DNA from: Paenibacillus aceti
GTDB lineage: Bacteria > Bacillota > Bacilli > Paenibacillales > Paenibacillaceae
Direction of reading: 5' to 3'
Assembly (NCBI RefSeq): GCF_003614185.1
Contig: NZ_KZ987724.1
Span: forward strand, 1,170,159-1,234,158
Length of the DNA: 64,000 nt
Shown here: positions 46,196-64,000 of the stretch, in pieces
Position numbering within the stretch: position 1 is the first letter of the stretch
Layout of the letters: each line of letters starts with the position of its first letter
Program-made: the position numbers and the translations under genes
Notes under the pieces: model-generated
The model's input: only the letters and a program-made list of their open reading frames with translations
Told to the model about the DNA's origin: nothing
Databases searched by the model: none

Positions 46196-47247
46196 GAATC
46201 AGAGCGCTGATCAAAAGAATCTGCGAACAGATGCTGCGTGACAAGCGCACATTGGCTCTACTTTTTCTGGCGCCGCTGCTCGTGCTGTCCCTGATGCATT
46301 ACTTGTTCAATCACACGGGTGATGTTGCTGACGCTAAGATTGGTGTTGTCGGCCTGCCTCCACAATTGACCGCAAGTCTGGAGCAGCAAGGGCTGGATGC
46401 CATTGCGTATGACAAGGCGGATAAAGATACATTACTGCAAGATCAGCTGGATGCAGTGATTGAGATGCAGGCGGGCAGTATTCACCTTATCCTGGAAAAT
46501 AGTGACCCATCCCAGTCGAAGGCACTGCAGATGAAGATCGGGCAGGCGACCGAATTATTGGCGGGCGGTATGCAGCAGCAAGGGCAAGCAGCCACTTCCC
46601 CCAAGCCTGGAGTAACTGTAGAGTATGTATATGGCAGCGAGGACACCAGCTTTTTTGATACCTTAAGTCCAATATTGATCGGTTTCTTCGTCTTCTTCTT
46701 CGTATTTCTGATTTCCGGAATCGGCTTGCTGCGGGAGCGCACGACCGGAACACTGGAACGGCTCATGTCAACGCCGGTACGCAGGGGCGAGGTTATCACC
46801 GGATATTTGGCTGGCTATGGCATCTTCGCGTTCATTCAAACCGTGATTGTCGTTATATACGCAACGATGGTGTTGGGCATGAATCTGTCCGGCTCGATCT
46901 GGTATGTGCTGCTCACGAATCTGCTGCTGGCATTTGTAGCTCTATCGCTCGGTATACTATTATCGACCTTTGCCGCGTCGGAATTCCAGATGGTTCAATT
47001 CATTCCGCTTGTGATCGTACCGCAGATCTTTTTTGCTGGCATTTTCCCGCTAGAGCATATGGATACCTGGGTACAGGTGGTGGCCAGAATCATGCCGCTC
47101 TATTACGGAGCCGACGCGCTAAAGGGTGTAATGTACAAAGGACTAGGATTCCCTGATATCGCCTTCGATCTTTCCGTGCTAGTTCTATTCGCCGCTTTAT
47201 TTATCCTGTTGAATGTTGTAGCGCTGCGGAAATACCGGAAGCTCTAA
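46192..47247 (+). CDS. ABC-2 type exporter permease
   Basis: The 351-residue permease has a first membrane helix (LALLFLAPLLVLSLMHYLF) and an extracellular domain of about 120 residues. Five more helices follow, with SGIGLLRERTTGTLERLMST before helix 3 and VVIVPQIFFAGIFPLEHM-like sequence near helix 5. This matches YhgE/YfiN-type permeases that act as homodimers. ATGA overlap with the ATPase gene indicates coupling. Expected role: drug or toxic-compound export, possibly constitutive here because of the broken regulator. Confidence 0.87.
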   Translation: MRIRALIKRICEQMLRDKRTLALLFLAPLLVLSLMHYLFNHTGDVADAKIGVVGLPPQLTASLEQQGLDAIAYDKADKDTLLQDQLDAVIEMQAGSIHLILENSDPSQSKALQMKIGQATELLAGGMQQQGQAATSPKPGVTVEYVYGSEDTSFFDTLSPILIGFFVFFFVFLISGIGLLRERTTGTLERLMSTPVRRGEVITGYLAGYGIFAFIQTVIVVIYATMVLGMNLSGSIWYVLLTNLLLAFVALSLGILLSTFAASEFQMVQFIPLVIVPQIFFAGIFPLEHMDTWVQVVARIMPLYYGADALKGVMYKGLGFPDIAFDLSVLVLFAALFILLNVVALRKYRKL

Positions 47248-47310
47248 CAAGCGAGGGTAAGCTCTAACAATCCATGTTAACTCAAGATAGGTCAACAAGA
47301 TAAGTCAAAA

Positions 47311-47342
47311 GCCGGGGTTAAGATACTTCCCCGGTCTTTTTG
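47311..47342. terminator. Bidirectional terminator between permease and MFS genes
   Basis: GCCGGGG (47311-47317) pairs with CCCCGGT (47329-47335), followed by CTTTTT on the plus strand and CTTTTGAC on the minus strand. Confidence 0.75.
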
Positions 47343-48475
47343 CGTCCGTACCTACGATAGAGCAGTAACCCGAATAAGGTGCCGATCAACGACATTATAG
47401 AAATAGAAAGGTACATAGTGTGTCCGCCAAAGGCTTGATACAGCGCTCCGCCGACAAAAGATGCGAGGATGCCGGATACTCCGAAGAAGAGCAGCGCCAG
47501 TACGGTCTGACCGGTTGCCCGCCACTCCACAGGCACAATATTGTACAGGTATTGGATCGCAGCGGTGTAGAACAAAGGGAATGTAAGCAACTGCAGTAGC
47601 TGCAAATACGCGAGCCAGTTTGGATCTTTGATCCAGGCGGAAATGAAGAAACGGACGAAATAAAAGGCCCCGGCAAAAGTAATTATCGCCAATTCCTTGT
47701 CCTTACGCAGCCACCAGAAACTCAATGAGAATACTAGAATTTCACTGCCTGCGGCCAGAAACCAGGCGAGCCCGAGCAGATCAGGCTTTCCACCCAAATC
47801 TTTAATATATAGTCCCAGATAGGTGTCATTCATCCGTGCCGGAATGGAGCTGATGAATACGAGAATGAGAAATAACAGCGTCTCTCTATTGCTCAGAAAG
47901 TTCTTCAGACTCTGGATCGTCACCGGCTTGCCCGAGACCGGGGCGTCTGGCATAAAGAAGGTAACGATCAGACTGATGACGCCGATAATGGCAAATGTAA
48001 AGCCCAGGCTGCGGGAGCCAAATTCAGTCATCAGAAATCCAGCCGCCAGCGACATGACCGCATAGCCTAATGCACCATAGGTACGCAGGGAGCCATAGCT
48101 GATTCCTTCGGATTCAGCGACGCGGAAATTGAGGCTCTCGGTGAGCGGATCGATCGGCATGAGGAAGAAATAGGTCAGCATAACGAAGAGCAGGATTAAT
48201 GCGTAGTTGTTCGAGCTGAATAAAGAATACCCTGTAACAGTACAGCATATTACGAGCAGCAGCAGCACTTTGCGGACGGTACGCAGGCGGTCACTGATCA
48301 TACCCCATAACGGCTGGGCGATCAGGGTGATAAATCCACCGATGCCGAGGATGGTCCCAATTTGCGTCTCGCTTAGCCCCTGGTCACTGAAGTAAAGAGG
48401 CAAAAACGGAATAAACATCGCCAGCAGAGCGAAAAAAAGAAAATTAAATGATTTTACAGTATAAGCAGCCTTCAT
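47318..48475 (-). CDS. MFS transporter, nucleoside/sugar-permease-like (MFS_1_like)
   Basis: The 385-residue protein has twelve helices. It begins VKSFNFLFFALLAMFIPFLP and has QIGTILGIGGFITLIAQPLW, GMISDRLRTVRKVLLLLV (motif A), and SYGSLRTYGALGYAVMSLAA with the Arg typical of the LacY/NupG-like MFS_1_like branch. GGGGGAAAG precedes the ATG. It lies 51 bp after the GbsR-type regulator on the same strand, so the two are probably co-transcribed. The substrate is unknown. Confidence 0.85.
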   Translation of the reverse strand: MKAAYTVKSFNFLFFALLAMFIPFLPLYFSDQGLSETQIGTILGIGGFITLIAQPLWGMISDRLRTVRKVLLLLVICCTVTGYSLFSSNNYALILLFVMLTYFFLMPIDPLTESLNFRVAESEGISYGSLRTYGALGYAVMSLAAGFLMTEFGSRSLGFTFAIIGVISLIVTFFMPDAPVSGKPVTIQSLKNFLSNRETLLFLILVFISSIPARMNDTYLGLYIKDLGGKPDLLGLAWFLAAGSEILVFSLSFWWLRKDKELAIITFAGAFYFVRFFISAWIKDPNWLAYLQLLQLLTFPLFYTAAIQYLYNIVPVEWRATGQTVLALLFFGVSGILASFVGGALYQAFGGHTMYLSISIMSLIGTLFGLLLYRRYGRKKTGEVS

Positions 48476-48526
48476 CGCTTTCCCCCAATTTCTTCACGAA
48501 AAAAACTCATGGATATGATCGTTCAT

Positions 48527-49063
48527 CTATGTCCTTGGGACATGCTCGAAAATTTCCCCACTGTCAAAAAAGTCAACCAAGCGATCCAGCCAGCGGTAAT
48601 AATCCTGGCATTCCTTGGTTTGCTGGAGCAGCATACCGATCCTTTGCTGCGTCTCCCCATCGATCGCTTCATTCTCCACAAGCTCCGTTAATTCTGCAGA
48701 CAACTTCTTCTCGAACAGTTTATTCCTGTTAATCGCCTTTTTCCAATTCGATGTGAACAAGGATATGAACGTTTGATAATAGTCCTGCTCTACATTATAT
48801 AAGTCTTTTCGGACCCCTTTTTCAAACACCTTATCGGCGATATTTAGATCGAGCATCTCCCGGACCACCTGACTCATCCGCGTCTTGCTCATACCTGTCG
48901 ATTCCGACAATTCATCGAGAGTCATCGGCTTTCGATTCATATAGATAATGCCCAATACCCGCCCGACTGTCGTCGAGACGCCGTAGGTGTGCATATTGTC
49001 TGCGATCCTATCAATAAATTGATCTTCGATATGTTTTATTTTGATTAATGGTTGTTCTTCCAC
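48527..49063 (-). CDS. GbsR-type MarR-family regulator (OpuAR/OpcR-like)
   Basis: The protein has about 178 residues, with IEDQFIDRIADNMHTYGVST, TVGRVLGIIYMNRKPMTLDE and LSESTGMSKTRMSQVVREML. This is the GbsR winged-helix signature of regulators that control choline and glycine-betaine genes in Bacillus. The GTG at 49063 is favoured; the ATG at 49072 touches the GGAAGG site. It is divergent from opuC, with an operator-like inverted repeat at 49238-49264, so it most likely represses opuC in response to choline. Confidence 0.87.
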   Translation of the reverse strand: MEEQPLIKIKHIEDQFIDRIADNMHTYGVSTTVGRVLGIIYMNRKPMTLDELSESTGMSKTRMSQVVREMLDLNIADKVFEKGVRKDLYNVEQDYYQTFISLFTSNWKKAINRNKLFEKKLSAELTELVENEAIDGETQQRIGMLLQQTKECQDYYRWLDRLVDFFDSGEIFEHVPRT

Positions 49064-49237
49064 AGAGATCATCCTTCCAATTTACCATTTCATAAGCCAA
49101 TGTATCATATTTGGGCTCAAAGCGGAAAAGGAGAATTTGGCAGGAAATGAAGAGAATAGAGAGGATTAATAAGAGAAGCCTGCTATAACTCCGCTCAAGA
49201 ATCGTTTCGCGTAAATACAATACAATACGTACAGTTT

Positions 49238-49264
49238 ATAAACTTTTTATTTTATAAAGTTTAT
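49238..49264. promoter_or_regulatory. GbsR-type operator upstream of opuC
   Basis: ATAAACTTT (49238-49246) and AAAGTTTAT (49256-49264) are perfect 9-bp arms separated by 9 bp. The site lies in the opuC promoter region about 75 bp before opuCA; TATATA follows at 49265-49270. Confidence 0.7.
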
Positions 49265-49335
49265 TATATACTGAATATTACAAATTAGTTTTGAATTCCT
49301 ACGAGATATACAGAAAAAAATGGAGGTGCTTACAT

Positions 49336-50466
49336 TTGTTGAGATTTGAACATGTTTCAAAAATGTATAAAAACGGAAAAACAGCGGTTGACGATCTATC
49401 ATTTGAGTTTGAACAGGGAGAATTTATTTGTTTTATCGGACCTAGTGGTTGCGGTAAGACCACGACCATGAAAATGATCAATCGCTTGATTGAACCTACC
49501 AAAGGCAGCATCTATATCAATGGGGAAAATGTGATGGAAAAAGATCCAGTCCAGCTTAGAAGGGAGATCGGGTATGTCATACAGCAGATCGGCCTGTTCC
49601 CGCATATGACCATTCGGCAGAACATCTCGCTGGTCCCCAAGCTGTTAAAATGGCCGGAAGAGAAGCGCCGGGCCCGTGCAGCAGAATTGCTGAATCTGGT
49701 GAATATGACTCCGGATTATCTAGATAAATATCCGCATGAATTAAGCGGCGGGCAGCAGCAACGTATCGGGGTTTTACGGGCATTGGCTGCGGATCAGCCG
49801 CTTATTTTAATGGATGAGCCGTTCGGGGCGCTCGACCCGATTACTAGAGATGCATTACAGGAAGAATTCAAGAAACTGCAGAGAAGGCTGGGCAAGACCA
49901 TCGTCTTCGTCACTCACGATATGGATGAAGCGCTGAAGCTGGCGGATCGCATCGTCATTATGCGCGATGGACGGATCGTGCAATGCGACACACCTGATGA
50001 AATTTTACGCAATCCGGCGGATGATTTTGTGGAAGAATTTATCGGGAAAGACCGCTTGATCCAGGCCAGACCTAACATCCAGACCGTTGAACAAATCATG
50101 AATCCTAGTCCTATAACTATCACGGGAGACAGGACCTTAACGGATGCGATCCAACTCATGAAGCAGAACCGGGTCGATTCTCTGCTCGTCGTCGATGATC
50201 AGAAGATACTGAAAGGCTATGTCGATGTCGAAATCATTGATCAGAAACGTAGAAAAGCAAGGCTAGTCAATGATGTGCTCGAAACCGAGTTTACGGTGGC
50301 GAAAGACACACTTGTACGAGATACCATCCGCGTCATATTAAAAAAAGGCGTGAAATACGTTCCGGTTACGGATCATGAGCATCGTCTTGTCGGTATCGTA
50401 ACAAGGGCAAGCCTGGTAGACATCGTCTATGATTCGATCTGGGGAGAAGAGGAAGTAACGCAATAA
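49336..50466 (+). CDS. opuCA: Osmoprotectant ABC transporter ATP-binding protein
   Basis: OpuCA powers uptake of glycine betaine, carnitine and choline under salt stress. The 376-residue protein has Walker A GPSGCGKTTTMKMINRLIEP, IGYVIQQIGLFPHMTIRQNI, signature HELSGGQQQRIGVLRALAA and Walker B LILMDEPFGALDPITRD. Two C-terminal CBS domains (about 255-370, MNPSPITITGDRTLTDAIQL) may sense ionic strength or c-di-AMP, as in related transporters. The start is TTG at 49336 with GGAGGT upstream; the longer frame from 49291 lacks such a site. It is the first gene of a four-gene operon. Confidence 0.95.
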   Translation: MLRFEHVSKMYKNGKTAVDDLSFEFEQGEFICFIGPSGCGKTTTMKMINRLIEPTKGSIYINGENVMEKDPVQLRREIGYVIQQIGLFPHMTIRQNISLVPKLLKWPEEKRRARAAELLNLVNMTPDYLDKYPHELSGGQQQRIGVLRALAADQPLILMDEPFGALDPITRDALQEEFKKLQRRLGKTIVFVTHDMDEALKLADRIVIMRDGRIVQCDTPDEILRNPADDFVEEFIGKDRLIQARPNIQTVEQIMNPSPITITGDRTLTDAIQLMKQNRVDSLLVVDDQKILKGYVDVEIIDQKRRKARLVNDVLETEFTVAKDTLVRDTIRVILKKGVKYVPVTDHEHRLVGIVTRASLVDIVYDSIWGEEEVTQ

Positions 50467-50481
50467 GAAAGGGGAGGTATG

Positions 50482-52084
<1,603 letters not shown>

Positions 52085-52097
52085 GGGGTGCAGCATT

Positions 52098-52775
52098 TTG
52101 AAGACGATCAATGAAATTTTACAATATTACTCGCAAAACGCGAGCTATGTCTGGGAACAATTCTATCGCCATTTCCTGATGTCCGCTTACGGGGTCTTGT
52201 TCGCTGCGATTGTGGGCATTCCGCTTGGGATTTTGATCGCGCGGCATTACAAGCTGAGCGTGTGGGTCATTTCACTGGCAAATGTGATCCAGACCATTCC
52301 CGCCTTAGCCATGCTGGCCGTGCTGATGCTTGTCATGGGTCTGGGGACGAATACGGTGGTGTTCGCCTTATTTCTCTATTCCTTACTGCCGATTATTAAG
52401 AACACGTACACGGGAATCCGTCATGTGGATCATACCTTGCTGGAATCCGGCAAAGCCATGGGGATGACCAAATTCCAGGTGCTGCGTATGGTCGAGCTGC
52501 CGCTGGCGATGTCGGTGATTATGGCCGGCTTGCGCACGGCCCTCGTCATCACGATTGGCATTGCCACGATCGGTACATTTATCGGCGCCGGCGGGCTGGG
52601 CGACATTATTCTGCGCGGAACGAATGCCACAGACGGCACAGCCATTATCCTGGCCGGTGCGATTCCAACCGCCCTGATGGCGGTTATTGCGGATATCGGC
52701 ATGGGCTGGATCGAACGAAAACTATCTCCGAACAAAAATAGTCAAAGCACTGCCCAACAAAATCTAGCATCGTAA
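52098..52775 (+). CDS. opuCD: Osmoprotectant ABC transporter permease
   Basis: The 225-residue permease is similar in layout to OpuCB: VLFAAIVGIPLGILIARHYK, LESGKAMGMTKFQVLRMVEL (coupling loop) and [20 protein letters not shown]. The start is TTG at 52098 with AGGGGG nine bases upstream; the longer frame overlapping opuCC is unlikely. It completes the transporter. No obvious terminator follows in the 95-bp gap before the serine hydrolase. Confidence 0.94.
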   Translation: MKTINEILQYYSQNASYVWEQFYRHFLMSAYGVLFAAIVGIPLGILIARHYKLSVWVISLANVIQTIPALAMLAVLMLVMGLGTNTVVFALFLYSLLPIIKNTYTGIRHVDHTLLESGKAMGMTKFQVLRMVELPLAMSVIMAGLRTALVITIGIATIGTFIGAGGLGDIILRGTNATDGTAIILAGAIPTALMAVIADIGMGWIERKLSPNKNSQSTAQQNLAS

Positions 52776-52870
52776 GTTATAATGGTAATGATTGTCTGCA
52801 TTTAAGTAGCTTTATACATTGATGGGTCCAGCTGCCTAGCAGATATCGACCTATAAGGAGAGAGTAACGG

Positions 52871-54316
52871 ATGCACAAGACGAAGAGATCATTACCAAGA
52901 ATGAGTCCGGAACAATTGGGGATAGTACCGCAACAGGTCATTTCCTTTCTGGATGATGTGAAGGCGCATCAAATTGAAATGCACAGCTTCATGCTGCTGC
53001 GGCATGGTCAGGTAGCGGCGGAAGGCTGGTGGGCTCCTTATGCGCCGGAGTTGCCTCATATGCTGTTCTCGTTAAGCAAGAGCTTCACTTCAACGGCGAT
53101 CGGTATGGCGGTTCACGAAGGCATATTGAAGCTGGATGATCCCGTTGTATCATTTTTCCCAGAGGATCTGCCGAATACCTTGTCTGAACATCTCGCCGGG
53201 ATGCAAATCCGCCATCTGTTAATGATGGGAACGGGACATGATCAGGATACTATGGATGCACTAATTAATGCGGAGGATGGCAACTGGGTCAGGGCGTTCT
53301 TGCAGCTGCCTGTACCGCACGAGCCAGGAACCCATTTTCTCTATAATACCGGGGCGACCTATATACTGTCTGCGATTTTGCAGAAGGCTTCAGGGCAGTG
53401 TCTGCTTGATTACCTAACCCCTCGATTATTCGAACCGCTTGCTATCGAGAATCCGACATGGGCTGCTTGCCCGCGCGGGATCAATACTGGTGGTTATGGA
53501 TTGAATATCACGACGGAAGATATCGCGAAGTTCGGCCAGTTATATTTGCAAAAGGGCGTTTGGAATGGAGAGCGGCTTATTGATGAAGACTGGATCGCAG
53601 AGGCGACAAGCAAGCAGATCTCGAATGGCGATGGTGGAGATAGCGACTGGGCGCAGGGCTACGGATACCAATTCTGGCGCTGCCGCCATGGGGTACATCG
53701 TGGAGACGGGGCATTCGGCCAATTCTGTATTGTGATGCCGGAGCAGGATGCTGTGTTAGCGATCACCTCAGGTACAGGAGATATGCAAGGGATTCTCAAT
53801 AGTGCGTGGGATTATCTGCTGCCAGGCTTCCTCCCTGAACCGGTCGCAACTAATGAGGGATCAGCCGAGCTGAGCGAATATATTGCCAAGCTGCAGCTCG
53901 AGGCTCCACAGTTAAGAAGTGAGTCGATACTGGAAACCCAAGTCAGTGGAAAAAGATACGAAATCGATCAGGATCAGATGGCGCAAGTTCCGTTCCCGTT
54001 GAAGGAACTGCGTATCGAATTCGATAGAGATTCCGCACGTCTGAATATGAAGCTGGAAAGTGAAGATAGCATCACATTGGGACGTGAGCATTGGCTGGTT
54101 GAATCGACGATTACTATCGAAGGTAAGAGGACTAGAGTAGCTGGTAGCTTCACTTGGAAATCGCAAGACGAGCTTGTATTAACGATGCAAGCGATTGAGA
54201 CGCCTTTCTGTGCCACGCTGGAGATCCGGTTTGCCGATAATACCTTAACTATGAATTCGAGATATAATGTCGGCTGGGATGAGGTTATTACGGTACAGGG
54301 AAAAGCGATAAATTAA
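52871..54316 (+). CDS. Serine hydrolase of the beta-lactamase/DD-peptidase (class C) family
   Basis: The 481-residue protein has the catalytic SxxK motif at S67-K70 (LFSLSKSFTSTAIG), Y158 in FLYNTGATYILSAIL as the second motif, and HRGDGAFGQF replacing the KTG triad, as in class-C-like esterases. A C-terminal beta-rich domain covers about 340-481. No signal peptide is visible, so it may be cytoplasmic and act as an esterase rather than a penicillin-binding protein. AAGGAG precedes the ATG; a strong terminator follows. Confidence 0.87.
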   Translation: MHKTKRSLPRMSPEQLGIVPQQVISFLDDVKAHQIEMHSFMLLRHGQVAAEGWWAPYAPELPHMLFSLSKSFTSTAIGMAVHEGILKLDDPVVSFFPEDLPNTLSEHLAGMQIRHLLMMGTGHDQDTMDALINAEDGNWVRAFLQLPVPHEPGTHFLYNTGATYILSAILQKASGQCLLDYLTPRLFEPLAIENPTWAACPRGINTGGYGLNITTEDIAKFGQLYLQKGVWNGERLIDEDWIAEATSKQISNGDGGDSDWAQGYGYQFWRCRHGVHRGDGAFGQFCIVMPEQDAVLAITSGTGDMQGILNSAWDYLLPGFLPEPVATNEGSAELSEYIAKLQLEAPQLRSESILETQVSGKRYEIDQDQMAQVPFPLKELRIEFDRDSARLNMKLESEDSITLGREHWLVESTITIEGKRTRVAGSFTWKSQDELVLTMQAIETPFCATLEIRFADNTLTMNSRYNVGWDEVITVQGKAIN

Positions 54317-54330
54317 TAATTCAAAGTTGA

Positions 54331-54377
54331 GCCTGCTTGAAAGCCGATATGATACGGCTTCTGGCGGGCTTTTTTAG
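54331..54377 (+). terminator. Terminator after the serine hydrolase
   Basis: GCCTGC (54331-54336) pairs with GCGGGC around an inner AAGCCG/CGGCTT stem and is followed by TTTTTTAG. Confidence 0.85.
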
Positions 54378-54403
54378 AATCATTTGGCTGAAAGGTTCTT
54401 AAA

Positions 54404-54439
54404 GAACGTGTGTTCTGGCGTCAATAAAAATGTTATGAT
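54404..54439 (+). promoter_or_regulatory. LexA (SOS) box and promoter of the TerB-BrxD-helicase operon
   Basis: GAACGTGTGTTC (54404-54415) fits the Bacillus LexA/DinR consensus CGAACRNRYGTTYG at all but the two outermost positions (A and T). A TATGAT -10 (54434-54439) lies 18 bp downstream, so the box covers the -35 region. An extra half-site GGTTCTT precedes it. Confidence 0.65.
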
Positions 54440-54475
54440 CATAGAAGAGAGTTTTGAGATGAGCATAAAAATGGG

Positions 54476-56056
54476 ATGAATGGTGATGTGTATTCCATGA
54501 ATTCAGATGACAAATCGTTAGAGTTTGCGGAGATCGATATAAGTGAAGCGCAGGAGCAGAGCGGCTCGTTGCAGGGAATGACCATTCCTGAACGAAAGGA
54601 TATACCTCGTCCTGCTCAGGGAGGCTCGCTGTCAGGGCAACAGCTTACGAGAGAGCAGAGATTTGTGAAGCAAGCCAGGGAGTGGGCCCAGCGGGAAGGG
54701 GAGCCATCGCTCTATATGCCGTTCATGAGCTATTGGCCAACCTACGACCAGATGGACAAGGAGCAGCTGAGCTGGTATTTTTTCTGGCGCAGTGAGGTGA
54801 GGCAGGGGCGGTATCCTTTTACCGATCTGTCCTACATATTTGTCTATTTATATGAGCTGATCCATGGTGTTGGCTGGGAGGAGCCCAAGCAGGGCTATAC
54901 TCTGCTGATGGACTTATGGGATGCTTATCAATCGATGTACCCGAAGCTGAACAACTATATTGCGGAATGGGTCTGTGACTTTGTGCTGCTGCATAAGCTG
55001 AACCTGCCATTAATGGACATCGTCATGCGCTCTTCTACGGCCCGGTCAGGAGAACTGTTCGATCTGGAATTGCAGCGACTTTTGGCGAATGATCCTGGCA
55101 AGCTGCGTGTCGAGCATATATTAGCTTTTTCGGATTATGACTTGCAGCGCAGTAAATTTTATGTGCGTGGTGGACGCGCACTTTTGGAGGAGTACGTGCC
55201 GAAGGTGGTGGCGCTGGTCGATTCCTATTTGCGGAAGACAACCGATAAAAATCTGGTCGATACCTTCTATAAAGGAAAAGGAAAGACAATCGAGCGTTAT
55301 TTGTTCCGCAGTGCGGTGTATGATGCAGAGTTATATGGACGCACGCTGCCACTGCGTATTTTCCAACTCCGAAGATGTCCGCCGCTTCGTTATTACATCA
55401 CGCAATTGATCCGCTGCACGGAGAATAAACTGCGGGAGCTTCAACACTATAGAGGGCGGCTGCGCGGCATTTCTCTCATGCCGGAGACGCAGATGCTGAT
55501 CGAGCGCTTCCTGGAGAAAGAATATACCGCAGGACAGAAGCCTGCCGGTCCTGTAATCTCTATCGATCCTGAACGGCTGGCCACGCTGCAGAAGGATAGT
55601 GAGGAAGTGCGAAGCATGCTGACTGTTGAGGATGGACAGGCGGTGGAGGTGGAGGAGATCGAACAAGCGTGGATGGAGCCGAGCACGGATTGCGTGCAGG
55701 AAATGGAGCTGGAGACGGAAGAAGTGTCAGCACAGCCAGAACAGGTGAATGAGCAGGATGATCTATCCTATACAGACTCCAGCCAGAAGATCGTTTGGGA
55801 CACATCCAGCCTGGACGAGGATTGGCTGCTGTTTGCGGTGCAGCTGGAGCTGGCACATCTTGAAGTTTTGTATACGTTAAAGGAGTCGAGCGGCCATATA
55901 AATGAAGTTGCCGATAAGTACGGGATGATGCCCGCGCTGCTGCTCGATGAAATTAACGAGCTGGCGATGGAGACGATTGGGGACTTGGTGGTGGATGGTG
56001 AATCCATCGCGGAAGATTATATAGATTATTTTGCACGATTAAGGCGGAATGGATGA
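54476..56056 (+). CDS. TerB-N/TerB-C domain protein
   Basis: The 526-residue protein has a TerB-N domain at about 75-290. Its key segments are LYMPFMSYWPTYDQMDKEQL, WYFFWRSEVRQGRYPFTDLS and YIFVYLYELIHGVGW. A TerB-C domain at about 360-525 is interrupted by an acidic linker (410-450). It ends DKYGMMPALLLDEINELAME and TIGDLVVDGESIAEDYIDYF. Published comparative work on tellurite-resistance domains places TerB-N/TerB-C proteins with ATPases and helicases in predicted DNA-processing systems. The start is uncertain (ATG 54476 or 54497; weak ribosome binding sites). The ATPase gene begins 11 bp downstream. Confidence 0.85.
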   Translation: MNGDVYSMNSDDKSLEFAEIDISEAQEQSGSLQGMTIPERKDIPRPAQGGSLSGQQLTREQRFVKQAREWAQREGEPSLYMPFMSYWPTYDQMDKEQLSWYFFWRSEVRQGRYPFTDLSYIFVYLYELIHGVGWEEPKQGYTLLMDLWDAYQSMYPKLNNYIAEWVCDFVLLHKLNLPLMDIVMRSSTARSGELFDLELQRLLANDPGKLRVEHILAFSDYDLQRSKFYVRGGRALLEEYVPKVVALVDSYLRKTTDKNLVDTFYKGKGKTIERYLFRSAVYDAELYGRTLPLRIFQLRRCPPLRYYITQLIRCTENKLRELQHYRGRLRGISLMPETQMLIERFLEKEYTAGQKPAGPVISIDPERLATLQKDSEEVRSMLTVEDGQAVEVEEIEQAWMEPSTDCVQEMELETEEVSAQPEQVNEQDDLSYTDSSQKIVWDTSSLDEDWLLFAVQLELAHLEVLYTLKESSGHINEVADKYGMMPALLLDEINELAMETIGDLVVDGESIAEDYIDYFARLRRNG

Positions 56057-56067
56057 GGTGAAGTGGA

Positions 56068-57411
56068 ATGACGGAATCAAAAACAGCGGAGATCAAAATA
56101 CCGAGGCGGTTGACGACCGCGCTGGTCAATTCATTGACTGCGGGCGTGGTGCCGAGAATCGGACTGGAGCATATCGCGGTGGGCCGTAAGGCGGAGGTTG
56201 AAGCTATCCTGCGCGACATGGACAATATCGCCGCTGGCGGAGCGGCCATGAGGCTAATCACTGGACGTTATGGCAGCGGGAAGAGCTTCCTGCTGCAGAC
56301 GATACGCAATTATGCGCTCGACCGGGACTTCGTGACGGCTGATGCCGACTTATCTCCCGAACGGCGTCTAGTCGGTACGAAAGGCCAGGGCTTGGCCACC
56401 TACCGTGAGCTGATGACGCATCTATCGACCCGTACCCGACCGGACGGCGGAGCGCTGGAAACCGTCCTGCAGAAATGGATTACGACGATTCAGCAGGAAG
56501 CGATGAAGGCGGATGGCCTGCGCCCCGGTGATCCGGCAATGACCGCGGTGGTCGAGCAGCGGATTTTCACGGTGACGGCGCAGATGCAGAACCTGGTGCA
56601 CGGCTTTGATTTTGCTCGTGTGCTGGCTGCTTATTGGAACGGGCATAAGCTCGGGGAGGATGGGCAGAAGCAGGCCGCTCTGCGCTGGCTACGCGGTGAG
56701 TTCCCGACCAAGACCGAAGCGCGGAAAGAACTGGATGTGAGCGCCATTATCGATGATGACAACTGGTATGACTATATCAAGCTATGGTCGGAATTTGTAG
56801 CGATGATCGGCTATCAAGGCCTGCTGCTATTTATTGATGAGGGCGTTAATTTATATAAAATATCGAACAGCATCGCCCGGACGAGCAACTACGAAAAGCT
56901 GCTGACGATGTTTAACGATACGATGCAGGGCAAGGCGGAGCATCTCGGGATTTTCCTGGGCGGTACGCCGCAGTTTGTCGAGGACGAACGGCGCGGTCTG
57001 TTCAGTTATGAGGCGCTGCGCTCCCGTCTGGTGGAGAGTCGCTTTGCCGGAGCTGGCTACCGCAACTATACCGGCCCGATTCTCAAGCTGGAGATGCTCT
57101 CGCATGAAGAGATTCTGATTCTGCTGCAGAAGCTGCGGCAAATCCATGGTTTGCATTTTGGCTATACTCCGACTTTGACGGATGCGGATTTGATTCAATT
57201 TATGGAGTTGGCCGTGAGCCGGATGGGAGCGGACGAGCTATTGACACCGCGTGAAGTCGTACGTGATTTCATGGATTTGCTGCATACCTTGCAGCAGAAT
57301 CCAGAGGCTTCGTTCAGCCAGCTGCTTGGCGAGCGGAGGGTTGAGTCAGCAGCGGGTGCAGGGGAGCAGAAGGATGAATTGGATGATTTTCTGGCGGAGT
57401 TTGAATTATGA
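56068..57411 (+). CDS. BrxD-like ATP-binding protein (DUF2791 family)
   Basis: The 447-residue AAA-like ATPase has Walker A TGRYGSGKSFLLQTIRN (66-73 GRYGSGKS), Walker B GLLLFIDEGVNLY (D257, E258) and sensor GIFLGGTPQFVEDERRG. Arginine residues near 318-325 (RSRLVESRF) are possible arginine fingers. This is the DUF2791 family that includes BrxD of type 2 BREX systems. The extended region between the motifs is helical. GAGGTGAAGTGGA precedes the ATG. The gene overlaps the helicase gene by four bases, so they are almost certainly a functional pair. Confidence 0.88.
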   Translation: MTESKTAEIKIPRRLTTALVNSLTAGVVPRIGLEHIAVGRKAEVEAILRDMDNIAAGGAAMRLITGRYGSGKSFLLQTIRNYALDRDFVTADADLSPERRLVGTKGQGLATYRELMTHLSTRTRPDGGALETVLQKWITTIQQEAMKADGLRPGDPAMTAVVEQRIFTVTAQMQNLVHGFDFARVLAAYWNGHKLGEDGQKQAALRWLRGEFPTKTEARKELDVSAIIDDDNWYDYIKLWSEFVAMIGYQGLLLFIDEGVNLYKISNSIARTSNYEKLLTMFNDTMQGKAEHLGIFLGGTPQFVEDERRGLFSYEALRSRLVESRFAGAGYRNYTGPILKLEMLSHEEILILLQKLRQIHGLHFGYTPTLTDADLIQFMELAVSRMGADELLTPREVVRDFMDLLHTLQQNPEASFSQLLGERRVESAAGAGEQKDELDDFLAEFEL

Positions 57412-59606
57412 GCGGCGGGGCGAATCAGCTATTTTATCGCTTGGCACCGTTTATTCAGGAATTTATTTACCGCAAAAGATGGGAGACGCTGCGTCCAGCC
57501 CAGGTCGAGGCGCTCAAAATTTGCATGGACACTCCGCACCATATGCTGATTGCCGCAGGAACGGCGTCGGGGAAGACGGAGGCGGCTTTTTTCCCGGCCT
57601 TGACCGAGCTGCATGAGCGTCCATCTGCTTCGGTAGGTATTTTGTATATCGGCCCTTTGAAGGCGCTCATTAACGACCAGTTTGAACGGATCAAAGAGCT
57701 GCTTAGGGATGGGAATATCCCCGCCTGGCACTGGCATGGCGATGTCTCGCAGACGGAGAAGACCAAACTGATGCAAAAGCCCTCGGGTGTGCTACAGATT
57801 ACGCCGGAATCGCTGGAAGGGCTGCTGATGAATCGGCCCAATGCGATCCCCGCTCTGTTCCATGATCTTAGATATATAATTATCGACGAGGTTCATGCTT
57901 TTATGGGGGCGGACCGGGGCATCCAGGTGTTGAGCCTGATCACGCGGATTGAGCGAATGGCGAGCTGCACGCCTAGACGAGTCGGCTTGTCCGCCACGCT
58001 AAGCGACTATGAAGCGGCCAAGGCCTGGCTCGGCGCGGGAAGCAAGCAGCCAGTCGACGCGGTATCCGTGCCCGGCGGACGCAAGCTGCGGCTGAGGGTC
58101 GAGCATTTCTCGTTCCCGGATGCCCGCGACGAGGAGCAGGCCGAGCATTTGCAGAATGCTCGCAAGGCCTATTACAACTTCGTCTATGACAGCACGCATC
58201 TGAAAAAAGCGCTCGTCTTCACCAACAGCCGCTCCGATGCGGAGCTGACGACGCTGGAGCTACGCAGGGTGGCGGCGCACCGTCATCAGCCGGATGTGTT
58301 CTATGTGCATCACGGCAGTATCTCGGCGATGCTGCGCGAAGAAGCGGAAGCCGCGCTGAAGGATAAGCCGGGCCCGGCGGTTGCCGCCGCGACAGTAACG
58401 CTGGAGCTGGGCATCGACTTGGGCGAGCTGGAACGGGTCGTTCAGTTGGGCGCGCCGTATAGCGCCTCCAGCTTCGTGCAGCGGCTGGGCCGCTCCGGAA
58501 GACGAGGGGATGCGCCATCCGAGATGCTGTTCGTCTGTCCGGAGGAAGAGGACGAAGATGCGATGCTGCCGGCGCGGATGCCGTGGATGCTTCTGCGGGC
58601 GATCGCGGTCATCGAGCTGTACGTCCGCGACCGCTGGGTCGAGCCACTCGACATCCGGCAGATGCCGATCGGCCTTCTATACCATCAGACGATGAGTATA
58701 TTGAAGAGCAGAGGCGAAGCGACACCTGCCGAGCTGGCCTCGGATGTGCTGTCGCTGCCTTCTTTTCGCCGGATTTCCCCGGAGACGTATAAAGTGTTCC
58801 TGAATTACTTGCTGCAGACGGATCATATTCAGTGGACGGAGCAGCAGACGCTGATCATCGGCCTGACGGGGGAGAAGATCGTGAACAACTTCCGTTTCTA
58901 TGCCGTGTTCAAGGATGATGAGGAACATGCGGTGTATAACGGAACGGAGGAAATCGGCTCGATTACGACGGTGCCGCCACCGGGATACTGCTTCTCACTG
59001 GCAGGTAAGCTGTGGAAGGTCACTGAGGTGGACACCAAGCACAAGGCGGTGTACGTAAAAGCGGCCTTAGGCAAAGTCGATACGCTGTGGCTTGGGGCAG
59101 GCGGCGACATTCATACGTTGGTGCTGCGGAAAATGCGCGAGGTGCTGGCGGATAGCACGATCTATCCGTACCTATCACCGCAGGCTGTGAACCGACTGGA
59201 GCGGGCTCGCCGTCTGGCAAGGGAGAGCGGGCTGCTGAGATCGGCGGTCATTCCGGCAGGCGGCGACTCGTTGTTCATCCTGCCATGGGTCGGCAGCAAG
59301 CAATTCCGCACGCTGGAGCGACTGCTCAAGAACAACCTCTCCCCGCGGCTGTCGCTTCGTTCGATCGTGCCTATGGAGCCGTATTATTTCGTGGTCGCAG
59401 GTAAAGCAGACAGCCAGGCGCTATTGGAGCAGATTTTGTTCGAATGCGGTTCCTGCACGGACCCGTCGATGCTGCTTGGGCCTGATGAGGCGCCGTATTT
59501 GGGTAAATACGACGAGTTCGTCGCCCCGGAGCTGGTGCGCCAGGCTTTTGCTGTGGACGGGCTGGATGTAGAGGGGCTAAGAGCTGGGCTAGAGCTTCAC
59601 AAATAA
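57408..59606 (+). CDS. Lhr-like superfamily 2 helicase (BrxHI-like)
   Basis: The 732-residue DEAD/DEAH helicase has motif I IAAGTASGKTEAAFFP (50-57), Ia YIGPLKALINDQ, motif II DEVH at 160-163, III SAT (195-197), and helicase C with VFTNSRSDAELT, LELGIDLGELERVVQLGAP and motif VI QRLGRSGRRG at 358-367. A winged-helix and C-terminal region (370-732) resembles Lhr/BrxHI proteins. It is expected to unwind nucleic acid for the TerB/ATPase partners. ATGA overlap with the ATPase gene. The stop codon lies within the first palindromic unit of the next repeat module. Confidence 0.9.
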   Translation: MSGGANQLFYRLAPFIQEFIYRKRWETLRPAQVEALKICMDTPHHMLIAAGTASGKTEAAFFPALTELHERPSASVGILYIGPLKALINDQFERIKELLRDGNIPAWHWHGDVSQTEKTKLMQKPSGVLQITPESLEGLLMNRPNAIPALFHDLRYIIIDEVHAFMGADRGIQVLSLITRIERMASCTPRRVGLSATLSDYEAAKAWLGAGSKQPVDAVSVPGGRKLRLRVEHFSFPDARDEEQAEHLQNARKAYYNFVYDSTHLKKALVFTNSRSDAELTTLELRRVAAHRHQPDVFYVHHGSISAMLREEAEAALKDKPGPAVAAATVTLELGIDLGELERVVQLGAPYSASSFVQRLGRSGRRGDAPSEMLFVCPEEEDEDAMLPARMPWMLLRAIAVIELYVRDRWVEPLDIRQMPIGLLYHQTMSILKSRGEATPAELASDVLSLPSFRRISPETYKVFLNYLLQTDHIQWTEQQTLIIGLTGEKIVNNFRFYAVFKDDEEHAVYNGTEEIGSITTVPPPGYCFSLAGKLWKVTEVDTKHKAVYVKAALGKVDTLWLGAGGDIHTLVLRKMREVLADSTIYPYLSPQAVNRLERARRLARESGLLRSAVIPAGGDSLFILPWVGSKQFRTLERLLKNNLSPRLSLRSIVPMEPYYFVVAGKADSQALLEQILFECGSCTDPSMLLGPDEAPYLGKYDEFVAPELVRQAFAVDGLDVEGLRAGLELHK

Positions 59607-59788
59607 CTGCAAAAATACAACTATCCTCGTAACAATAGTCTTGAGATTATACAATAGCTGCGTATATACAATTATTTGCCCACTTAAGTCGTTATCAGGG
59701 GAAATTCCACCCGGATAGTTGTATCAAAGCAGCTATTTTCTCTGTACAGGGTCAGAAGAGCTGATATAGTTGCAAATACGCAGTTAGC
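59601..59788. repeat. Type I palindromic quartet module
   Basis: Unit cores lie at 59608, 59659, 59720 and 59771, exactly 51, 61 and 51 bp apart. Units include ATAACTGCAAAAATACAACT and ATAGTTGTATCAAAGCAGCT; the latter forms an 8-bp stem with T-G pairs. It aligns with 41945-42133. The first unit overlaps the helicase stop codon. Together with the next module it fills most of the 644-bp gap 59607-60250. Confidence 0.87.
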
Positions 59789-59848
59789 TATACGATGTAG
59801 ACAATCTTATTTTACTCGTAACCGAAGGAGCCCCTAAGATCAATGAGG

Positions 59849-60035
59849 CTAATTGCATAATGTACATCTAAAATCACATAAATCGCTTCTAGCTAAACTT
59901 TAATTGCAAAAAGTACATTAAGAAAACTAAATTTCTTTGCTTCATCCGAAAGGGGTTATTTTAAGTGTACAAAATGCACTTGTAAGAGAAGGGCTCCGGT
60001 AATCCGGTGGAATAAGTGTATGATTTACACTTGTG
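59849..60035. repeat. Type II palindromic quartet module
   Basis: Unit cores lie at 59854, 59905, 59966 and 60017, again exactly 51, 61 and 51 bp apart. Units include TTAATTGCAAAAAGTACATT and TTAAGTGTACAAAATGCACT. It aligns with 41702-41885. Here type I precedes type II, the reverse of 41.7 kb. The remaining 60036-60240 shows nothing I recognise apart from the pcp ribosome binding site. Confidence 0.87.
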
Positions 60036-60250
60036 CTATCAGTTTAGATTGTCTCACTCAGTCTAGATGGTTAATTAGGAGGCCGGAAGCTCGAATATGA
60101 CCAGTAGCAGAGTGCGATCTCAGACTAGCGTGGGGTGAAGTATATTGTGCTCCTGGTACTGTGCCAGTCATATAGCAGCGGTTAAATAGTAACGGTCAAC
60201 TGAGCGTACCACGAACATGTACCACAAACGGCGGGAGGAGGAATTAGTAA

Positions 60251-60868
60251 ATGAAAGTATTGATTACGGCGTTTGAAGCTTTTGGAGAGGATGCCACAAA
60301 TCCGACTGAGAGGTTGCTTGCCGATATCGGGAAGGAGCAGATTACCGGGGCGGAGCTTCATACCTTGCTGCTTCCGGTCGTCTTTGATGAATGTGCGGAT
60401 AGGTTGCTTGAGGCGGTGCGGGCGCTGCAGCCGGATGCCGTTATCTGCTGTGGGCTTGCGTCGGGGCGGACTTCGATTACACCGGAGCAGATCGCGATTA
60501 ACTTGAAGGAAGTCGCTAAGGAATCGAGCGTAGCCGACAATAACGGGAATCGCCCCCATGACGAGCGGATCAACCCGGATGGCCCCGACGGTTTGTTCAG
60601 TCTGCTGCCCATACGCAAAATGGTGGATAACATGAAGGAGCAAGCTATACCAGCTGCAATCTCCTATTCGGCCGGAACGTATATATGCAATAACACGATG
60701 TATGCCCTGCTCGACTACATTCGCATTCACCAGCTGCCGATGCTCGGTGGCTTCGTGCATTTCCCGGCATCGCAAGAGATGGCCGTGGCTAAGCCAGGCT
60801 TGCCTTCTATGTCGCAGGAGACGATGCTGAAGGGCTTGAAAGTGATGATACATACATTGATGCAGTAG
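60251..60868 (+). CDS. pcp: Pyrrolidone-carboxylate peptidase
   Basis: Pcp removes N-terminal pyroglutamate from peptides. The 205-residue cysteine peptidase (C15 family) has the full catalytic triad: Glu79 in ITPEQIAINL, Cys146 in SAGTYICNNTMY and His170 in GGFVHFPASQE. The N-terminal MKVLITAFEAFGEDATNPTE is the family hallmark. GGGAGGAGG lies upstream of the ATG. It is a stand-alone gene, cytoplasmic (no signal). Confidence 0.94.
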   Translation: MKVLITAFEAFGEDATNPTERLLADIGKEQITGAELHTLLLPVVFDECADRLLEAVRALQPDAVICCGLASGRTSITPEQIAINLKEVAKESSVADNNGNRPHDERINPDGPDGLFSLLPIRKMVDNMKEQAIPAAISYSAGTYICNNTMYALLDYIRIHQLPMLGGFVHFPASQEMAVAKPGLPSMSQETMLKGLKVMIHTLMQ

Positions 60869-60910
60869 CCTGTCGGACACACGGCGCCCCGGGGGGCCCT
60901 GCCTCTGAAG

Positions 60911-60950
60911 AAAGCCCGATACTACCTCATGGTATGTATCAGGCTTTTCC
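60911..60950. terminator. Bidirectional terminator between pcp and the AraC gene
   Basis: AAAGCCCGATAC (60911-60922) pairs with GTATCAGGCTTTT (60935-60947) with one mismatch. On the plus strand TTTTCCTTTTTT follows. Confidence 0.75.
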
Positions 60951-61829
60951 TTTTTTGCGGAATTGGTAGGGGGAGATGTCCTTATACTGCCGAAACTGCT
61001 GGATGAAGTAACTTGAGCTGGAGAAGCCGACCTCCAGGGCAATCTCGGTCATGCTCTTATCCGTGGTCAGCAGCAGCTTCTCCGCCTCGGTAATGCGGAT
61101 GTAGTTCAGATAATTGGTGAAGGTCTTGCCCATAATCGCCTTGAACCTGCGGGAAAAATAGCTATAGCTCATATTACAGAGCGAGGCCGCGGTCTGAGCG
61201 TTAATATCATTCATATAGTTATAGTCGATGTATTCGAACACCTTCTGCAGCATCTGATAGTCGCTGTCATTCAGGGAATTCGCCAGTTCCCAGTTCCAAT
61301 GCTGCTGGTGGTGGGTCTGGCGCAGAAACCACAGGAAGACGCGGCAGATCAGCGTGCGTACAGCAAGCTCAAATCCGAAGCTCTTGGCGCTGAATTCATC
61401 GTAAATCTCCCAGATCATATCGGGGATGGGCGTATCTCTAATCTCCGAGGCGGTGAAGACGCGCTGGGTATTGGACTCAGCCAAGGTGAATGGCAGGATA
61501 TAGGTCGACTCCAGAATCGTCCGGGATGTGGAATACAGAATCTCAGGATCGAACTTAATGACGATATAGGAGACCTGTTCATCCAGAGTATAGATCGAAT
61601 GCGTCTCATGGGAATGGATCAGAATCAGATCGCCCTGGCTGAGGACATGAGCCTTCCCTCCTGAATACACCTTGGCGCTGCCGGTCAGGAAGTACAAAAT
61701 TTCAATATATAGATGCCAATGAGGGCCGACCAGGCAGCTTTGTTCCTCACCATAGTGAATCATGCTTTCGTATGGATAGTGGATCGCTCCAGGCTGGGAG
61801 CGGCTGGATTCGAAATACGGCTCGCTCAT
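60939..61829 (-). CDS. AraC-family regulator with cupin sensor domain
   Basis: The protein has about 296 residues. The N-terminal cupin-like domain has HWHLYIEILYFLTGSAKVYS and QGDLILIHSHETHSIYT. The C-terminal double HTH (about 195-295) has INAQTAASLCNMSYSYFSRR and MTEIALEVGFSSSSYFIQQF then KDISPYQFRKKG. This is the usual layout of Paenibacillus sugar-responsive AraC regulators. GAGGTG precedes the start. It is divergent from a sugar isomerase-like gene, its likely target. Confidence 0.9.
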   Translation of the reverse strand: MSEPYFESSRSQPGAIHYPYESMIHYGEEQSCLVGPHWHLYIEILYFLTGSAKVYSGGKAHVLSQGDLILIHSHETHSIYTLDEQVSYIVIKFDPEILYSTSRTILESTYILPFTLAESNTQRVFTASEIRDTPIPDMIWEIYDEFSAKSFGFELAVRTLICRVFLWFLRQTHHQQHWNWELANSLNDSDYQMLQKVFEYIDYNYMNDINAQTAASLCNMSYSYFSRRFKAIMGKTFTNYLNYIRITEAEKLLLTTDKSMTEIALEVGFSSSSYFIQQFRQYKDISPYQFRKKGKA

Positions 61830-61964
61830 CATTTTTCACCTCGATTTTAGAGATAACAAATATTTGATGTTTTTAAGTAGCTTCATTGTATTACTTCTAC
61901 TCGGATTTTGGTATCTTTACCTTACTTCATTTTACCTTAACTATATGGCAGGAGGTCTGATTAC

Positions 61965-62711
61965 ATGGAAAATATAGCTCTTCAGCTGTATTCCATCAAA
62001 GAACTGACGAACGAGGATTTTCTAGGCACATTGAAAAGCGTGGCTGAGATCGGCTATGACGGTGTGGAGTTCGCCGGGTATTTCGGCACTTCAGCGGGGC
62101 AGCTGAAGAAGGCTCTGGATGAATATGGTCTGAAGGCGGCGGGGAGTCATATCGGCATGCCTGATCTCACTGAGCGTCTGGAAGAGATGATTGAATATTC
62201 GCTGGCCATCGATAGCCCTTACATCATTTGCCCGGGAATTCCCGAAGATTTGCGCGATCATGCGGATGGTTACAAGCGGGCTGCGGAGATGTTCGATCGG
62301 ATCGGAGAGCGCTGTAAGGAACAAGGCCTTCGCTTCGGTTACCACAATCACGGCATTGAGTTTCAAAGGTATGACGGCCTGACAGGAATGGAACTGCTTG
62401 CAAGCCATACCCGGCCTGAGCATATGTTCTTCGAGCTGGATACGTACTGGGCGGAGTATGCAGGCTTCCGCGCGGTGGAATGGATGGAGTCCTTCCAGGA
62501 TCGCTGCCGTATTCTGCATATCAAGGATATGAAGAGCAAGCAGGATCAGCGCAATACGGAGATCGGCTCCGGTATTCTGGACTTCAGAGCGATTACAGCG
62601 ACTGGCAAGCAGCTTGGGGTGGAATGGTACACCGTAGAGCAGGAGGAGTACGAGATTCCGCAATTGGAGTCGATCCAGAAGAGTCTGAGCTATTTGCGAC
62701 AAATATTATAA
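61965..62711 (+). CDS. Sugar phosphate isomerase/epimerase family protein (xylose isomerase-like TIM barrel)
   Basis: The 248-residue TIM-barrel protein has ALQLYSIKELTNEDFLGTLK, EIGYDGVEFAGYFG, FGYHNHGIEFQRYDG with metal ligands, MFFELDTYWAEYAG and RILHIKDMKS. Glu in VEQEEYE ends the set of likely divalent-metal ligands. It resembles inosose dehydratase/epimerase-like IolE/IolI relatives that Paenibacillus uses in sugar catabolism. The substrate is not predictable. GCAGGAGG precedes the ATG. It is divergent from the AraC regulator. Confidence 0.87.
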   Translation: MENIALQLYSIKELTNEDFLGTLKSVAEIGYDGVEFAGYFGTSAGQLKKALDEYGLKAAGSHIGMPDLTERLEEMIEYSLAIDSPYIICPGIPEDLRDHADGYKRAAEMFDRIGERCKEQGLRFGYHNHGIEFQRYDGLTGMELLASHTRPEHMFFELDTYWAEYAGFRAVEWMESFQDRCRILHIKDMKSKQDQRNTEIGSGILDFRAITATGKQLGVEWYTVEQEEYEIPQLESIQKSLSYLRQIL

Positions 62712-62831
62712 ACAATGTGAGAAATACGGATTAAATCTGGTGAGGGAGTTATCTTTTTACGCTAAATAGGAAATCCTGAGGTATGAACCAAAAACCACTA
62801 GAACATATCTACAGGAGGAAGAAATAGCATA

Positions 62832-63368
62832 ATGAGAAAACAAGTCATTTGCCTGGGCGTACTTGGTGCTTTGATGTTCGGGACTGCCCCCATGAATCCG
62901 GCTTGGGCCAAGTCAGAGGAGCTGCAAGTCAAGACGACGATTGTCGATACGAAGGGTGCTGAAATTGGTACAGCGGTCCTGACGCAAAAAGGAGACGCTG
63001 TTCATATCCATCTGGAGGCGAAGAACCTCACTCCGGGCGAACACGGCATCCACTTCCATGAGAACGGGAAATGCGAGCCGCCGGATTTCACTTCCGCGGG
63101 AGCTCATTTCAACCCGCAGGGCAAGCAGCATGGCTTCAATAATCCGAAAGGATTCCATGCCGGCGATCTGCCCAATATTACCGTCAAAGCCGATGGAACT
63201 GTGAATGAGGATCTGGAGAGCAAAGTGGTCACGCTCAAAAAAGGAGTGCCGAATTCGCTGCTGAAGGAAGGCGGCACCTCGTTGATGATTCACGAGAAAG
63301 CCGATGATTATGTCACCGATCCCTCCGGAAATTCCGGCGCACGGATTGCCTGTGGTGTAATCAAATAA
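62832..63368 (+). CDS. sodC: Cu/Zn superoxide dismutase, secreted
   Basis: The 178-residue precursor has signal sequence VICLGVLGALMFGTAP followed by AWA at the cleavage site. All expected metal ligands appear: His74 and His76 (GIHFHENGKC), bridging His92, His100, His109 and Asp112 (FHAGDLP), and His154 (MIHEKADDY). It also has Arg171 (GNSGARIACG) and the Cys81/Cys174 disulfide. It is predicted to dismutate superoxide outside the membrane. GGAGGAAG precedes the ATG; a terminator follows. Confidence 0.93.
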   Translation: MRKQVICLGVLGALMFGTAPMNPAWAKSEELQVKTTIVDTKGAEIGTAVLTQKGDAVHIHLEAKNLTPGEHGIHFHENGKCEPPDFTSAGAHFNPQGKQHGFNNPKGFHAGDLPNITVKADGTVNEDLESKVVTLKKGVPNSLLKEGGTSLMIHEKADDYVTDPSGNSGARIACGVIK

Positions 63369-63386
63369 TTTAATAGCCTATATAAC

Positions 63387-63420
63387 TAAGCAGCTGAACC
63401 TTTAGGATTTGGCTGCTTTT
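63387..63420 (+). terminator. Terminator after sodC
   Basis: AAGCAGC (63387-63393) pairs with GCTGCTT (63411-63417), followed by TTACATT. Confidence 0.7.
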
Positions 63421-63616
63421 ACATTATTTATCATGAATGGTAAAAGTGAATAATTGGGTACTAATGCTTATGTGTAAAAGCCTGATCTTGTTTATACTGG
63501 GGACGACAGAGATCATATGCATCAGTAGCCTGGATGAGAGGAGGTTAGGGCGTTTATTGACGAAGGAAACCCGCAAACATAAGAATCCACCAATATGTTA
63601 AAAAGGAGTGATTCGT

Positions 63617-64000
63617 ATGTCTAGCACTATCCGCAAATTAAGAATGTTGCCCCTTAAGCTGGGATTATGCCTTTTGGTGCTGCTGTTTGGCTTATCTTTT
63701 ACAGAGACCGCTGTTTTGGCCTCGCCTGCAACCTTAAGCCCGATCAGTGACTCATATGTAAATCAAGGCAATCCCTCTTCAAATTATGGTACTTCCACTT
63801 CTTTGTACGTCAAGAACGATGCGGCGAGTTCTCGCCAAGCCTTCTTAACATTTAATCTCTCCGAAATTTACGGAAGCTCATCATACAATACGGTCTTGTC
63901 TGATACGACTTACAATTACTATATTATTGCTAGAGATGTCTTGGGTAACCGCTCCTTGCCTAGCAGCAGCACGGTGACAGTCAAAACGATGGCATATAGC
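63617..64000 (+). CDS. Secreted protein with CBM96/DNRLRE-like start joined to an FN3-like segment (3' end outside window)
   Basis: An open frame of 128 codons reaches the window edge. It has a signal peptide (LGLCLLVLLFGLSFTETAVLA). The next part, ATLSPISDSYVNQGNPSSNY then GTSTSLYVKNDAASSRQAFL, is the start of a DNRLRE/CBM96 carbohydrate-binding domain, which normally spans about 160 residues. After about 45 residues it switches to TTYNYYIIARDVLGNRSLPS, a typical fibronectin type III C-terminal strand pair. The first domain therefore looks internally deleted, in frame. AAAAGGAG precedes the ATG. Confidence 0.7.
   Translation, partial: MSSTIRKLRMLPLKLGLCLLVLLFGLSFTETAVLASPATLSPISDSYVNQGNPSSNYGTSTSLYVKNDAASSRQAFLTFNLSEIYGSSSYNTVLSDTTYNYYIIARDVLGNRSLPSSSTVTVKTMAYS

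Follow-up and report, generated by a model that had tools for sequence, protein, structure and literature searches.

A Shango system without a recognizable TerB domain in Paenibacillus aceti and its near-universal presence in some Paenibacillaceae genera

What kind of system is formed by three tightly packed genes for a TerB_N/TerB_C protein, a BrxD-like ATPase and a helicase, and does it serve phage defence or the upkeep of its host's own DNA? The question arises from a stretch of 64,000 nucleotides of Paenibacillus aceti (contig NZ_KZ987724.1, hereafter the window), in which such a trio occupies a single operon (Table 1). Each of the three proteins matched one of the PADLOC models for Shango (SngA, SngB and SngC) over most of the model length, and the three genes are adjacent, as these models define the system. 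The window trio is an already known kind of system; what is new is its TerB-less form and its near-universality in some Paenibacillaceae. The published description (PMC10250203) gives Shango of Pseudomonas aeruginosa PA14 three components, an ATPase, a helicase and a protein called TerB-like, and indicates that, in PAO1, the PA14 system makes many but not all of the titrated phages plate 10- to 100-fold less. A trio with the same gene order on an Escherichia coli plasmid also matched all three Sng models.

The trio and its motor pair

The genes sngA and sngB are 11 bp apart and sngB and sngC overlap by 4 bp. Among 156 loci, which were picked for holding SngB and include some genomes fetched twice, all three open reading frames (ORFs) lay on the same strand in 154, and the order A-B-C held in 153 of the 154, with a median B-C gap of -4 bp. 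This linkage, which is far beyond chance, had been named as a test in a preliminary description based on the sequence alone. That description was right about the tight operon, the protein families of all three genes, the kinship of two of them to BrxD and BrxHI, the lack of BREX core genes, and the stand-alone nature of the trio; it missed that such trios had already been named and tested elsewhere as Shango. The lacking TerB domain, the near-universality in some groups and the history of transfer could not be seen from the sequence by itself.

Table 1. Features of the Shango locus in the window
Feature	Position in window	Strand	Basis
sngA, TerB_N/TerB_C protein, 526 aa	54476..56056	+	ORF; Pfam; PADLOC PDLC03958 SngA 1.2e-107
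TerB_N domain of SngA, residues 33-257	54572..55246	+	Pfam 2.6e-38; structure model
sngB, BrxD-like, ORC/Cdc6-like AAA+ ATPase, 447 aa	56068..57411	+	Pfam; PADLOC PDLC03959 SngB 1.8e-206; structure model
SngB presumed Walker A, residues 66-73	56263..56286	+	G....GK[ST] in 154/155 SngB ORFs
SngB presumed Walker B acidic pair, residues 257-258	56836..56841	+	Hydrophobic run + DE in 155/155 SngB ORFs
sngC, SF2 (BrxHI/Lhr-like) helicase, 732 aa	57408..59606	+	Pfam; PADLOC PDLC03960 SngC 3.3e-244; PDB matches

SngB belongs to the Pfam family BrxC_BrxD (4.4e-165, 550 bits). It combines the fold of an ORC/Cdc6-like AAA+ ATPase, in a structure model of moderate confidence, with two motifs that we take to be Walker A and Walker B, the D257 and E258 of the latter being invariant across 21 alignment rows. 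SngC contains the DEAD (1.9e-27) and Helicase_C (1.1e-14) domains and matched the BrxHI model with 413 bits; its best sequence matches in the PDB were the ATP-dependent DNA helicases 5v9x and 7lhl, presumably Lhr proteins. Helicase motifs, in what we assume to be their usual numbering, were found in most of 154 SngC ORFs (I in 149, II and III in 152 each, VI in 154), which together with this similarity makes SngC a superfamily 2 (SF2) helicase of BrxHI/Lhr-like type. Pfam detected no nuclease, methylase or toxin domain in any of the three proteins. The trio is under strong purifying selection: the ratio of nonsynonymous to synonymous substitution rates (dN/dS) is low for SngB and SngC, and SngA is the fastest evolving of the three.

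The neighbours of the trio in the window are an operon that by eye resembles an OpuC-type transporter, a gene for a pyroglutamyl peptidase and one for a serine hydrolase with a beta-lactamase fold. PADLOC models (E up to 0.1) matched neither the peptidase nor the hydrolase, the sole neighbours scanned. The serine hydrolase (52871-54316) has 3-succinylated cholic acid synthase as its best NCBIfam match, well under the cut-off, and a relative of it lies near sngA in the other three genomes of the window's group. The ~640 bp that separate sngC from the pyroglutamyl peptidase gene (59607-60250) hold no plausible gene and have no Rfam match; Rfam likewise gave no match in positions 46000-64000, and no tRNA was found in the window.

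Distribution and descent in the Paenibacillaceae

Defence systems are usually patchy in their distribution and are often borne on genomic islands. We surveyed one genome per species and found SngB in all 100 species of one genus of the family (g8), every match being 1e-60 or better; as a comparison, HsdR_N occurred in 46 of the same 100 genomes. Presence in every sampled species of this genus is unusual for a defence system. In the window's genus, 33 of 41 species had SngB, and the same 33 had SngC (E <1e-100); in the family as a whole, SngB was matched (E up to 1e-3) in 222 of 395 genomes, in two of which the match is weak. A sample of the order, with 393 genomes in all, yielded five matches beyond the family, three of them strong. 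Elsewhere in the phylum the system is sporadic: a phylum-wide sample matched at 1e-60 in 25 of 398 genomes, seven of which belong to the window's family. Among the other 18, 16 had the SngA-SngB-SngC order (three of these loci are disrupted or truncated at a contig end) and two were BrxD-like without SngA. The trio is near-universal in some Paenibacillaceae genera, a prevalence for which we found no report in the Shango literature searched, passages of a survey of the Bacillus cereus group included; for Shango in Paenibacillus the one paper to turn up concerns glycan NMR. Several observations weigh against a wider claim: the window's genus, with its 33 of 41 species, is not universal for SngB; one of the other eight, the fragmented draft G028, carries SngA at a contig end; and in g8 the match falls into several pieces in five genomes (G185, G200, G209, G220 and G236) and is partial in G246, which leaves whole-looking SngB matches in ~94 of 100.

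Plasmid records contained SngB-like sequences in 694 of 72,556 cases (449 from Klebsiella and 144 from Salmonella), with 542 of the 694 typed as conjugative, in a collection that is probably clonally biased. Spread by phages is unsupported, SngB having no match in 50,697 phage records.

The history of the trio was compared with that of RpoB and RpoC in 73 genomes, 62 of them with an Sng locus. For these 62, the SngBC and RpoBC trees shared 19 of the 39 well-supported splits of each, against 0.075 on average and never more than 1 in label shuffles. The shared splits are mostly shallow, which suggests vertical inheritance inside clades and exchange from one clade to another. The flanking genes, studied in 76 of the 222 family loci, fit this clade pattern: in genus g4, two right-hand gene families are shared by 12 of 13 loci, an M50B peptidase gene stands divergently ahead of SngA in 17 of the 76 loci (two genera), and in 17 loci, all of the window's genus (within L068-L091), SngC has a same-strand gene for a pentapeptide-repeat protein downstream of it, with a spacing of -53 to 887 bp. 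What speaks against our preferred reading of a standing system, set out below, is that the agreement between the trees is only partial, at 19 of 39 splits, and that the Mantel rho is 0.43 overall and 0.32 for the 21 genomes of the main g1 clade.

In the case of the window's own group (G000, G011, G031 and G032), plain vertical descent was rejected. Its SngBC sequences nest inside a g8 clade, and their distance to the g8 genome G163 is 0.093, versus 0.133 for RpoBC, a ratio of 0.7 where the median over all pairs is 3.4; in addition, G011 has flanking gene families on both sides that are common to that g8 clade. The pattern reads as a transfer of the trio to this group, presumably from g8. The window's genome also carries an M50B gene, ~0.6 Mb from the trio, and the 20 kb read there showed no remnant of a second trio. 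We infer that this gene marks an old site of the trio, although the M50B gene may itself have relocated. The likeliest course is that the old copy was lost from the window's lineage, or was never there, and that another arrived by transfer.

SngA and its missing TerB domain

The domain after which the Shango family is described can be absent from it. TerB (PF05099), listed for Shango in a review (PMC10952713) and central in SngA that have it, gave no match in the window SngA at E up to 1, and to this extent the window departs from a definition of Shango by that domain; PADLOC's SngA model matches without requiring it. The protein does contain TerB_N, alpha-helical in the predicted model with a pLDDT >90 for most of it, and TerB_C (Pfam 2.7e-14). 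All of 34 Paenibacillaceae SngA, namely that of the window and 33 taken from the 59 representatives of a set of 124 full-length proteins, had TerB_N and TerB_C, and none had PF05099 at E up to 1. TerB was also without a match in the SngA of a P. peoriae plasmid and in three very long SngA from genus g17 (of eight loci fetched), and in other Bacillota families it occurred in one of 16 SngA, one of the 15 without it being a cut piece. PF05099 did precede TerB_C in all six SngA from E. coli, Klebsiella, Azospirillum, Bradyrhizobium, Roseovarius and a haloarchaeon, the first two being 99% identical. When profiles of TerB-less and TerB-type SngA were compared, TerB_C was the sole part that aligned.

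A tree of SngB from 28 systems, rooted on two BrxD-like rows, gathered the TerB-bearing systems in one clade (support 99/99), with a single change of label; a trait of SngA thus follows the tree of another protein. The window was placed among 19 TerB-less rows (99/98). TerB may accordingly have been gained in the clade that includes the E. coli system, and not lost in Bacillota. Two points count against our reading of a TerB-less branch: the haloarchaeal TerB match, at 21.1 bits, lies under the Pfam cut-off of 24.4; and the TerB-less rows are not monophyletic on the BrxD-like root, three of them branching first, with weak support (85/55) and very long outgroup branches.

SngA varies in other respects as well. 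In genus g17 (L092-L099, e.g., L098:4714-9012) its N-terminus is extended by roughly 700-850 residues, and in the three of eight proteins scanned Pfam (E up to 0.1) matched nothing in this extension. The SngB of this genus is longer too, with 530-687 aa in seven loci. A TM2 domain starts SngA in L292 (a plasmid of the haloarchaeon DL31), L307 and L311.

Proposed function and comparison with known systems

We found no report of anti-phage activity for the TerB-less Paenibacillaceae branch in the literature searched. Our preferred reading, to which we give a fair measure of confidence, is that this branch acts in phage defence by interfering with DNA processing, as a standing single-copy immunity. 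SngB would assemble on DNA and load or activate the helicase SngC, and SngA would bind the SngB-SngC pair and provide target recognition, which would account for its fastest evolution. SngC might then unwind or displace replicating phage DNA and so stop the infection; with no nuclease, methylase or toxin domain found by Pfam, interference of this type is likelier than cutting. In the groups where it is near-universal, the trio would be a standing immune system rather than cargo of defence islands.

Alternatively, the Paenibacillaceae trio could be a genome-maintenance helicase with its loader, dealing with breaks or stalled forks, the phage defence of its mobile relatives being derived or a side use. 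Its occurrence throughout g8, the single match in most genomes, the low dN/dS of SngB and SngC and the flanks conserved within clades, such as those of g4, would all fit this explanation, and two relatives adjoin genes possibly processing breaks. Directly after Shango, a Roseovarius plasmid carries genes for a PD-(D/E)XK family nuclease and a UvrD-type helicase (L290:9488-13299), and the DL31 plasmid has metallophosphoesterase and SMC genes after its own system (L292:9736-13254). However, seven of 41 species of the window's genus have neither SngB nor SngC, the trio has been exchanged and relocated in the window's group, its occurrence elsewhere in the phylum is scattered and SngA evolves fast; we regard a primary housekeeping role as possible but rather unlikely. 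On sequence evidence, both defence and chromosome upkeep stand as readings of the TerB-less form. A role in metal or tellurite stress, suggested by the Ter name and the TerB_N/TerB_C domains, is very improbable for a protein in which TerB proper was not found and which is encoded together with an ORC/Cdc6-like ATPase and a DNA helicase.

These results can be joined in a broader account, which we advance only tentatively. The TerB-less form would be the common Shango of Bacillota, with TerB perhaps a later addition in the clade of the tested systems. In Paenibacillaceae it would have turned into a chromosomal function that is single-copy and near-obligatory, with losses made good by transfer, so that DNA maintenance or a standing core immunity would underlie what is elsewhere an accessory phage defence, and the namesake domain would be dispensable for the core activity. 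A form present in all sampled g8 species under strong purifying selection offers a setting in which to ask about a service to host DNA. The conserved motor pair SngB-SngC stands apart from the fast-evolving SngA, the likely recognition element, and separating the two makes the Shango mechanism directly testable.

The least probable explanation of all, a type 2 BREX locus that has decayed or is incomplete, is one that we reject: the BrxD (2.2e-46) and BrxHI (5.3e-124) models do match, but the Shango models score far above them (684 versus 157 bits for the ATPase and 811 versus 413 for the helicase), the NCBIfam BrxD model reaches 159 bits with a cut-off of 350, and the trio is itself conserved as a unit. 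Genome-wide searches for PglZ and PF10923 found no BREX core gene: PglZ left one partial match of 25 bits, within an ORF of 281 aa ~0.67 Mb off, and the single PF10923 match was the trio's own protein. Nor does PglZ accompany the trio in most g8 genomes, contrary to what would have refuted the preliminary description: it was found in 22 of 100, only six times with E stronger than 1e-20, and in the five of those six that were checked (all but G247) it lay on another contig or >0.9 Mb from SngB. The trio shares with the BrxD-BrxHI pair of type 2 BREX an ATPase/helicase dyad of the same Pfam family and helicase type, and differs by its added SngA, its single PF10923 protein and the PglZ not found. 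Helicase loaders of the ORC/Cdc6 type are 14% identical to SngB across the aligned part and act with a ring helicase, whereas the partner of SngB is of SF2 and its loading role is proposed.

The closest comparison is with the TerB-bearing Shango clade of E. coli and Klebsiella, to which the PA14 system, judged from its description rather than by sequence comparison, probably belongs. The window shares with this clade the A-B-C order, TerB_N and TerB_C, and its SngB and SngC are 43% and 32% identical to those of E. coli. The E. coli SngA, by contrast, has 769 aa versus 526 in the window, with similarity detectable by BLAST over only 45 residues; it has the central TerB not found in the window, and the two systems fall in separate clades of the SngB tree. 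Whereas the window's form is near-universal in some genera, 437 of 5426 E. coli genomes carry at least 80% of the DNA of one E. coli Shango, in a megablast count that misses diverged copies.
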